In this document: one piece after another, positions 26,759-28,969 of the stretch
How positions within the stretch are numbered: position 1 is the stretch's first letter
Layout of the letters: every line of letters begins with the position of its first letter
Source of the DNA: Deltaproteobacteria bacterium
GTDB taxonomy: Bacteria; Myxococcota_A; Polyangia; JAAYKL01
Assembly (NCBI GenBank): GCA_030595125.1
Contig: JAUVDV010000052.1
Span: 1 to 36,354, forward strand
Length of the DNA: 36,354 bases
Direction of reading: 5' to 3'
Notes under the pieces: model-generated
What the model saw: only the letters and a program-made list of their open reading frames with translations
What the model was told of the DNA's origin: nothing
Databases searched by the model: none
Position numbers and translations under genes: made by a program

Positions 26759-27901
26759 TCAGAACAACGAGTGGGACCATAGCTGCTCCAGAAACAGTTC
26801 GTACGGAACGATCTCCACTCCATCTACCCGTCGCGGTTCCGGCTCCCGACAAACAACAATGCGCCGCTCGATGTTGTAGTCTCGCTGCTCCGTGATCGCC
26901 CGCAGCCCTTTGAAATCACGGTCGTGCAACATCCTGGACGACTTGACCTCCACCGCAATTGACTCTCCCAGTACGAAATCAACCTCCGCCCCGTTTTTAT
27001 CCCGCCAGAAGTGGATCGGCTTACTACGAGCGAAGTAATTAGTGTATGCGTTCAGCTCCTGCCAGATGAAGTGCTCGAAAGCTTTTCCATACGCTGGCGT
27101 ATCCACGCCGAGCGACATCCGACCGGTCAGCGCATGCACCACACCGATGTCGAAGAAATAAAACTTTCCGTGAGAGACCGCCTTACGCTTGCCGGTGGTC
27201 TGGAGCGGACGAAGCATTTTACCCACAAGCGTGTCTTCGAGCAGAACGAAGTACTCGCGTACAGTGCGCGCGGGCACCTGGCTGTCTCTCCCTACCCCTT
27301 CGAAGTTGATAAGTTCGCCGCTCCACAAGGCGGCGTGCGCCAGAAAACGCGAGAACCCCTCAATATTGCGGCTCAACGCCTCGGCGTGAATCTCCTCGCG
27401 AAGGTATGTGCCCACATAGCTGCCAAGTTCCTCCAGCGGTTCGTCCGACAACTGCACCGGGGGGAGCATCCCATACGTGAGCGCACGATCCAGATCCAAC
27501 GCAGGCAACTCCACACTCACAAAAGGCGCCAGCAGGCGCGTTCGCGCCCGTCCCGCCATCAACGATGTATGTGTCCGCCTCAGCTTGCGAGCACTGCTCC
27601 CGGTGAGCAAAAAGCGCACCCCTTTCTCCTCGATCATGACGTGAACTTCGTCCATGAGCACCGGCAACTTCTGGATCTCATCAATGACGATCAGGTGGTC
27701 GTCCGGCGACAACGACTCTCGGATAAGCGATGGACGCTGCGACAATCTCAGAAACACGTCCGATTTCAGGAGATCATAAACTCGATGCGGCGGCGCCTGA
27801 TGCCGGATGAAGGCACTCTTTCCGGTTCGGCGTGGACCGAGCAGTAGAATACTGCTTTTCTGCAGCTCCTTGACGATAGGGATAATGCGTTCGATGTACA
27901 T
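26759..27901 (-). CDS. AAA-family ATPase with DUF4143-type C-terminal domain
   Basis: Encodes 380 residues from ATG 27901; a GTG at 27940 would add 13 but falls inside a palindrome. Walker A is GPRRTGKS (22-29) and Walker B is LIVIDE (70-75), followed by LLTGSSARKLR, the sensor-like motif of this family. The C-terminal part contains the DUF4143 region (KFYFFDIGVVHALTG) and a PD-(D/E)xK nuclease-like fold (GAEVDFVLGESIAVEVKSS). Such ATPases are common, often laterally transferred, and of uncertain function; some are proposed to act in defence or DNA processing. There is no ribosome binding site, and a -10-like TACAAA (27914-27909) lies just upstream, so the mRNA may be leaderless. It converges with the 25637-26737 gene across a 21-base gap. 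Confidence 0.9.
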   Translation of the reverse strand: MYIERIIPIVKELQKSSILLLGPRRTGKSAFIRHQAPPHRVYDLLKSDVFLRLSQRPSLIRESLSPDDHLIVIDEIQKLPVLMDEVHVMIEEKGVRFLLTGSSARKLRRTHTSLMAGRARTRLLAPFVSVELPALDLDRALTYGMLPPVQLSDEPLEELGSYVGTYLREEIHAEALSRNIEGFSRFLAHAALWSGELINFEGVGRDSQVPARTVREYFVLLEDTLVGKMLRPLQTTGKRKAVSHGKFYFFDIGVVHALTGRMSLGVDTPAYGKAFEHFIWQELNAYTNYFARSKPIHFWRDKNGAEVDFVLGESIAVEVKSSRMLHDRDFKGLRAITEQRDYNIERRIVVCREPEPRRVDGVEIVPYELFLEQLWSHSLF

Positions 27902-27931
27902 CGATTTATTTGTAGCACAAAACTCTGATTC

Positions 27932-28012
27932 CCGCAACACTGTTGCGGCTTTTACCGTCTTTTCCGTATCTCCATTGCGGGTTTAAGCCATTTTTCCGCA
28001 TCTCTGTTGCGG
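27932..28012. promoter_or_regulatory. Three 17-bp dyads phased at 32 bp
   Basis: Sites at 27932-27948 (CCGCAACACTGTTGCGG), 27964-27980 (CCGTATCTCCATTGCGG) and 27996-28012 (CCGCATCTCTGTTGCGG) start exactly 32 bases apart, about three helical turns. The first is a perfect palindrome around one central base; the others keep the CCGya...TTGCGG outer arms. On the minus strand TTGCGG of the first site would act as the -35 box, 17 bases from TACAAA, for the ATPase gene. The arrangement suggests cooperative operator sites; the regulator is unknown. Confidence 0.55.
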
Positions 28013-28067
28013 ATTTCGGCATACGCCACCGCTTGCACTTTGAATAGCGGGACAACGTAGATAGTCG

Positions 28068-28073
28068 TATAAT
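28068..28073 (+). promoter_or_regulatory. Consensus -10 box upstream of the two-Cys repeat protein
   Basis: TATAAT matches the consensus fully and lies 31 bases before ATG 28099. No -35 box is found at a normal distance; TTGCAC at 28033 is 29 bases away. An activator-dependent promoter or chance are both possible. Confidence 0.35.
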
Positions 28074-28098
28074 TGTAGATGTCACGAGGGAGCGAACC

Positions 28099-28593
28099 AT
28101 GAAAGATAAGGCGCCCGCCATCATCCTCACAGCCCTGGCCCTGCTGGCCCTGTGCTTCGTGATCCACAGCCGTATCGCTGCAGCGTCGTCGTGTGGGCTT
28201 GTCAGGGATTCGGACGAGCGCCATATGTGCTACGCCCTGCAGGACAACTCCACCGGCCAGTGCGGCCTCATCAGGGATTCGGACAAACGCCACTATTGTT
28301 ACGCGATAGTAGACAAGAACACGGGCCAGTGCGGCCTCATCAGGGACAGCGACCTGCGCCACCAGTGCTATGCGGAGATCGACAACTCCTCGGGCCAGTG
28401 CGGCCTCATCAGGGACAGCGACCGTCGGCATTTTTGCTACGCCAGGGCCGACAAGAGCACGGGGCAGTGCGGCCTCATCAGGGAAAGCGATCTGCGCCAT
28501 TACTGCTACGCCCTGATCGACAAGAGCTCCGGACAGTGCGGACTCATCAGGCGAAGCGACCTGCGCAGCCGCTGCTACACCGAAGCCAAATAG
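28099..28593 (+). CDS. Exported protein of six 23-residue two-Cys repeats
   Basis: Encodes 164 residues; GAGGGA (28086-28091) precedes the ATG. Residues 1-30 form a signal peptide (MKDKAPAIILTALALLALCFVIHS, then AAAS). Everything after is six copies of one unit starting at residues 32, 55, 78, 101, 124 and 147. Each reads CGLIRDSDxRHxCYAxxDxSxGQ with small changes; the sixth is shortened to CGLIRRSDLRSRCYTEAK. Each unit has two Cys separated by 11 residues, so 12 Cys could give six internal disulfides in the periplasm or outside. The conserved Arg, Asp, His and Tyr suggest a metal- or ligand-binding repeat, but no named family was recognised. It diverges from the ATPase gene across the phased dyads. 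Confidence 0.85.
   Translation: MKDKAPAIILTALALLALCFVIHSRIAAASSCGLVRDSDERHMCYALQDNSTGQCGLIRDSDKRHYCYAIVDKNTGQCGLIRDSDLRHQCYAEIDNSSGQCGLIRDSDRRHFCYARADKSTGQCGLIRESDLRHYCYALIDKSSGQCGLIRRSDLRSRCYTEAK
28192..28575 (+). repeat. 69-bp tandem coding repeats (six units)
   Basis: Units start at 28192, 28261, 28330, 28399, 28468 and 28537, always 69 bp apart; the last ends early. The block TGCGGCCTCATCAGG is nearly invariant in units two to five. High DNA identity indicates recent expansion or gene conversion. Confidence 0.9.
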
Positions 28594-28606: not shown

Positions 28607-28969
28607 TCAGACTTTCGTCTCAGATTTCGTGACCGCCTCGGCCTTTATCCGGTCGAGAAGTTCGGCGAGCACCGGCTTGACATTCTCGCGGATATCCCCG
28701 GCGACAATGATGAACAGCAGATCGTCCCCGGGTTTCAGATGTCCCGCCACGGCCTCCACCACTATCTTCCAGATTCCGGGCCTGGCCTCGTACTCCACCC
28801 TGAGGGCCTCTATCCGATCCCGATCCGGGTGAACCTCGATATCGGTCACCTCCTTGTGATCCGATCTCGACCAGGCGCGCACGACACCGTTGTGAACGAG
28901 GATCATGCCCACATTTTGTGCGAACCCGGGCTCCTTTTTCATACGCGCGATCTCTGCGGTGATATCCAT
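28607..28969 (-). CDS. MoaE-like protein (molybdopterin synthase large subunit family)
   Basis: Encodes 120 residues. The central VGMILVHNGVVRAWSRSDHKEVTDIEV matches the MoaE N-terminal strand and VR-xSR block. GDDLLFIIVAGDIRENVKPVLAELLDRIKAE corresponds to the dimer and active-site region with its Arg and Lys; the C-terminal TKSE takes the place of the usual WKKE. In molybdenum cofactor biosynthesis MoaE, with MoaD, converts the cyclic precursor to molybdopterin. This short version is like stand-alone forms in anaerobic delta-proteobacteria, and no moaD, moaA or other pathway gene is in the window, so a different role is possible. It converges with the repeat-protein gene (13-base gap) and diverges from the transporter gene at 29044. 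Confidence 0.78.
   Translation of the reverse strand: MDITAEIARMKKEPGFAQNVGMILVHNGVVRAWSRSDHKEVTDIEVHPDRDRIEALRVEYEARPGIWKIVVEAVAGHLKPGDDLLFIIVAGDIRENVKPVLAELLDRIKAEAVTKSETKV

Follow-up and report, generated by a model that had tools for sequence, protein, structure and literature searches.

A DUF4143 (COG1373-type) ATPase gene, found in the 36,354-nucleotide stretch of deltaproteobacterial DNA analysed here (the window), is preceded by three phased dyads that overlap its promoter, persist with the gene in its orthologues and form a pattern unique in the genome. The array is real and worth testing, and comparison of loci places it with the ATPase gene, not with the divergent gene that shares the intergenic region. 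With reasonable confidence we favour the reading that the ATPase would repress its own promoter, binding cooperatively to private operators. The positions of all features are given in Table 1.

Table 1. Features of the ATPase locus in the window.
Feature	Position	Strand	Description
DUF4143 (COG1373-type) ATPase gene	26759..27901	-	380 aa; AAA/STAND-like NTPase, winged helix and restriction-nuclease-like domain
PD-(D/E)XK-like active-site stretch (E276, E306-x-D308, E318-x-K320)	26942..27076	-	From family conservation
ATPase helix-turn-helix, residues ~199-222, NFEGVGRDSQVPARTVREYFVLLE	27236..27307	-	From alignment and model; proposed dyad reader
ATPase promoter	27909..27937	-	-35 TTGCGG at 27932-27937, 17-bp spacer, -10 TACAAA at 27909-27914, 7 nt to ATG
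Proximal dyad CCGCAACACTGTTGCGG	27932..27948	.	Perfect palindrome, 8/8 symmetric pairs; one arm doubles as the ATPase -35 box
Middle dyad CCGTATCTCCATTGCGG	27964..27980	.	4/8 symmetric pairs
Distal dyad CCGCATCTCTGTTGCGG	27996..28012	.	6/8 symmetric pairs
Divergent two-Cys gene	28099..28593	+	Secreted-looking, tandem two-Cys repeats GQCGLIRDSDxRHxCYA

The dyad array and its distribution

The original prediction of three phased dyads, one of them perfect, was upheld. Each site is 17 bp long and the starts follow one another at a step of exactly 32 bp; the middle dyad is a weak palindrome and a good direct repeat. When the 197-bp intergenic region was shuffled with dinucleotide composition retained, the score of the three dyads was matched by none of 300 shuffles, whether the spacing was held at 32 bp or left free, and the direct-repeat score by none of 500. 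The helical phasing ascribed to the array was likewise borne out.

A scan of the organism's own 5.39-Mb genome for the specific pattern CCGYANCNCNRTTGCGG returned the window locus as its sole occurrence, and the looser single CCGNA-TTGCGG dyad occurs at control level in six genomes. The many genome copies of a REP- or MITE-like dispersed repeat were found neither in the own genome nor, with the looser dyad, in the six, and we rejected that reading; the units are not scattered at unrelated loci. Searches of 96 and 379 genomes placed the paired array at ATPase loci and at two solo places in distant genomes. Further matches with two mismatches look like background, since reversed controls match too.

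The two solo arrays are paired CCGCA-TTGCGG sites at 32-bp spacing (L150:8146-8194, that is G126:C378:37145-37193, and L151:8777-8825, that is G300:C4:10776-10824) with no DUF4143 gene adjoining. Both lie 29-41 bp past the stop codon of another long ORF, and TTGCGGGAATC comes after each of them, just as it does in the window. They may represent a relic, a cross-regulated gene or chance; for an ATPase relic beside the G126 array, tblastn with 40 queries reached E 0.001 and a profile search gave no confirmation.

Promoter overlap and conservation with the ATPase gene

The ATPase start was picked from an alignment of orthologues and is likely the ATG at 27901 on the minus strand. Upstream of it, the right arm of the proximal dyad, TTGCGG, is itself the -35 box and stands 17 bp from the -10; the original prediction had the first site overlapping the -35. 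This arrangement of TTGCGG, 17-bp spacer and -10-like hexamer is present in all seven clade genes (the window and six orthologues). In 6 of the 7 (5/6 orthologues) an ATG lies 6-7 nt past the -10-like hexamer. A leaderless ATPase mRNA is plausible because this short distance, 7 nt in the window, recurs in orthologues, and the earlier suggestion to that effect is probably right. An RNA-level hairpin was also considered and is unlikely, since in this clade the dyads sit upstream of the predicted starts of both transcripts.

Close relatives of the ATPase were collected by a scan of genome contigs, and searching relatives and the phylum added more. Five of them, 97% (L024), 74% (L026), 73% (L027), 69% (L028) and 66% (L034) identical to the window protein, carry 2-3 upstream CCGNA-N6-TTGCGG sites at exactly 32 bp, so that the dyads expected in homologous regions are indeed present there, and the more distant L060 (55% identity) keeps at least one dyad upstream of its ATPase. 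Between the window and L024, by eye count, the dyads show ~2 changes in 51 bp and the two 15-bp spacers ~8 in 30. Conserved dyads over the promoter of the gene's own ATPase, as would be expected of an autoregulatory operator, are found in seven genes with a fixed -35 overlap. Moreover, no neighbouring gene is common to the window and the orthologue loci, or to the orthologue loci among themselves, except at L024, which is of the same genus. With no common neighbour beyond the genus and the dyads nevertheless kept, the sites go with the ATPase.

The ATPase protein

The window ATPase matches Pfam AAA_14 (E 2.7e-16, 60.2 bits against a cut-off of 27) and DUF4143 (E 7.5e-29, 101 bits against 28.1), which places it among the DUF4143/COG1373 ATPases. 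It also matches the PADLOC profile PDC-S01 at E 3.6e-50, together with six more PDC-S01 profiles, and on this basis is a PDC-S01 phage-defence candidate. At E 0.001 Pfam returned AAA_14 and DUF4143 only, with no WYL domain; the NCBIfam search gave no named family, and a sequence search of solved structures gave no relative at E <0.1.

The AlphaFold model has a mean pLDDT of 92.8. Residues 1-260 align to the archaeal structures 2QEN and 2FNA (Z 15.4 and 14.8), with CED-4 and NLRs lower (12-13), all clearly above the other rows; the NTPase and winged helix thus match a STAND NTPase fold. The winged helix of NLR-type STAND proteins need not bind DNA. The winged helix and the nuclease-like domain were compared from a second model of residues 150-380. 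The former resembles CzrA/SmtB repressors (Foldseek probability 0.95-0.99, E 0.03-0.1, not significant), and the best rows for the latter were Can2/Card1 (Z 8.3), McrC (Z 7.7) and restriction enzymes, none with a Foldseek E <0.001. The Walker motifs and E276, E306, D308, E318 and K320 are kept in 112-113 of 113 family sequences, and these five residues match the acidic positions and lysine of a PD-(D/E)XK catalytic site.

A family-wide period over unrelated dyads

We compared 77 DUF4143 promoters, most of them from the same phylum, with the own genome's paralogues among them, against 172 other gene starts at the same loci. A best dyad score of at least 9 was reached by 27% of the family promoters and 2% of the controls (Mann-Whitney p=2.7e-12, a value that ignores shared descent, as do all p values for these promoters). 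The comparison was repeated in Omnitrophota with 39% against 3% (28 genes, 39 controls). About 40% of family promoters are without a strong dyad. Of all direct-repeat periods tested between 12 and 70 bp, 31 and 32 alone stand out: 22 of 45 repeated family promoters have this period against 2 of 65 controls, one of which is the same promoter seen from the opposite side. The cases come from 10 of 39 protein clusters, and their dyads are unrelated (for example ATTATCATGATAAT, GATTTTCATCGAAAAT, GGAGTATACTCC and AAAGTGCTACTTT); dyad sequences are wholly different between ATPase clades. A constant 31-32 bp period over unrelated dyads suggests that the proteins share a single geometry on DNA. The earlier claim that no known operator looks like this one stands, as far as that can be checked, if the exact sequence is meant; it misses that the 31-32 bp architecture, carrying other sequences, is common in the ATPase family.

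A divergent clade from alpha- and gammaproteobacteria and Deinococcota has CCTTGC/GCAAGG arms 31-32 bp apart in 6/6 cases. These arms, seen at the plasmid-borne DUF4143 genes L139-L141, L143, L144 and L146, enclose the promoter and end at the start codon. The own genome (G000, 5.4 Mb) has 20 DUF4143 matches, and several of these are preceded by dyads of their own; at one of them, L015, a palindrome with 13-bp arms (TTGAAAATTGATAGTTGCATTATCAATTTTCAA) precedes the DUF4143 start. On a Runella rosea plasmid (L145) a perfect palindrome with 16-bp arms (CGTACATTTAGGAATTTAATTCCTAAATGTACG) ends 3 bp before the DUF4143 ATG.

Two helix subtypes match operators of their own. Helices of the type QVPART[VI]RE pair with CCGNA-N6-TTGCGG in 7/7 genes against 0/96 others, and those of the type G[VI][DN][SA]KT with TATACTCC-NN-TTAGT-ACTAA-GGAG in 9/9 against 0/94 others, across two phyla; within the latter group pairs are 62-80% identical. 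To these two phyla a third is added by a Simkania plasmid gene that carries GVDDKT and GGAATATACTCC. Both helix groups are also clades, so shared descent, and not the helix alone, may lie behind part of these two perfect associations. Over ~100 genes, recognition helix and operator did not covary in general (partial Mantel, partial r about 0), and binned operator similarity showed almost no trend, rising only in a bin of two pairs.

Proposed mechanism and alternatives

We propose that each 17-bp dyad would be bound by the winged helix of the ATPase, probably as a dimer. At a distance of three helical turns (31.5 bp), neighbouring dimers would share one face of the DNA and touch each other, and once bound would cover the -35 box and keep transcription low. 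The promoter would open when the ATPase leaves it, as might happen if nucleotide-driven assembly on its trigger draws the protein off; this release on activation is speculation. A Thermus thermophilus AAA_14-DUF4143 gene, TT_P0211, is up 6.6-fold with a plasmid, only if Argonaute is present (PMC4406477), a response which fits such self-control but does not prove it. A far-reaching extension, tentative and in our view somewhat doubtful, is that in this very common STAND ATPase-nuclease family a single polypeptide would serve as sensor, effector and repressor at once, with each member held on a private array of universal three-turn period until recognition of foreign DNA or another trigger pulls it off and so induces it. 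If so, private arrays would keep the many paralogues of one genome from cross-regulating.

Alternatively, the array might be an operator read by another, unlinked protein that regulates these ATPase genes. Dedicated repressors do control other defence genes (CapW, PMC9122588; RptR, PMC12255303), two arrays are without an adjoining ATPase, and that the ATPase itself binds DNA is something we infer. Nevertheless, we judge this unlikely: no neighbour gene is conserved, the operators vary by ATPase clade under a constant period, and the own genome's 20 DUF4143 genes, several with different dyads, would need many matching copies of the regulator. The original prediction that the array may control both divergent genes was not supported by comparison of the loci, where the sites travel with the ATPase and the two-Cys gene is shared with the same-genus locus only. 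It is true that the array takes up the intergenic region common to the two genes, and that the same-genus locus, which retains the two-Cys gene, keeps all three sites as well. However, the dyads are kept at the other orthologues, from which that gene is missing, the proximal site sits exactly on the ATPase -35, and the -10 of the two-Cys gene (TATAAT, 28068-28073) lies 55 nt beyond the distal dyad, outside simple promoter occlusion, which makes shared control improbable.

About equally improbable is that the dyads are target or assembly sites of the ATPase-nuclease in defence or DNA mobility, with the promoter overlap secondary. An intact ATPase, a conserved nuclease-like active site and a stand-alone gene unit in varied contexts would suit it, but in all orthologues the sites are fixed relative to the -35/-10 and the start codon, and neither duplicated ends nor dispersed copies turned up. 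As for a dispersed repeat or a chance pattern unconnected with the gene, the two solo arrays in distant genomes and the background level of single CCGNA-TTGCGG dyads elsewhere could be cited for it; against them stand the uniqueness of the array in its genome, its retention in orthologues of 65-97% identity, the shuffles and the family-wide period, and we give this reading almost no credence. Autorepression by the ATPase through its own operators is the reading that we carry forward.

Relation to known systems

PDC-S01 is described as an ATPase with PD-(D/E)XK, a single-gene phage-defence candidate (PMC12988326), and this description fits our model. It was counted the fourth most common 'defence' across prokaryotes, and validation of anti-phage function is pending for most such candidates (PMC12988326). 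In the parts of the two PDC-S01 sources available to us, prevalence and evolution are treated and promoter architecture was not found (PMC12988326, PMC13356809). Among publications naming COG1373, judged by title and abstract, none dealt with the regulation of this gene family.

Like the dyads here, the palindromes bound by CapW and BrxR (CBASS, BREX) lie over a defence-operon promoter and are bound by winged-helix dimers, and CapW also represses its own gene (PMC9122588). Those proteins, however, are separate WYL-domain regulators adjoining defence genes, whereas at this locus a single protein would be both regulator and putative effector. RptR, from a restriction-modification defence island, represses a defence promoter via a set of three direct repeats that each contain a short palindrome (PMC12255303), but it is a separate small regulator of another protein type and its sites have a TAGCTA core. 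In the AbiE defence system, the antitoxin AbiEi is reported to act by negative autoregulation with cooperative binding to multiple inverted repeats (PMC7319586); AbiE is a two-gene toxin-antitoxin pair, in contrast to the single ATPase-nuclease here. Autorepressed defence genes are thus already known (CapW, RptR, AbiEi), and what would be new is a regulator and putative effector in one protein. The archaeal AAA+/STAND ATPases 2QEN and 2FNA share the NTPase and winged-helix module over residues 1-260 but are only about 20% identical to the window ATPase and are likened to it by fold. To our knowledge, no operator is known for them.

A private operator linked to the winged helix would give tests of PDC-S01 proteins a DNA ligand to work with, as well as a reporter assay and a means of reading out induction. 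Genomes with about 20 paralogues, such as this one, would be natural sets in which to study orthogonal repressor-operator pairs.

The divergent gene

The two-Cys gene is probably outside the conserved unit, as its position beside the ATPase is shared only with the same-genus locus L024. Its 164-aa product is built from the ~24-residue unit GQCGLIRDSDxRHxCYAxxDNS, which has two cysteines and is repeated about six times in tandem; the best Pfam match of the product, EGF_LRP2, is under the cut-off. Just downstream of it lies a gene with a MoaE-like domain (28607-28969 on the minus strand, Pfam E 1.8e-9).
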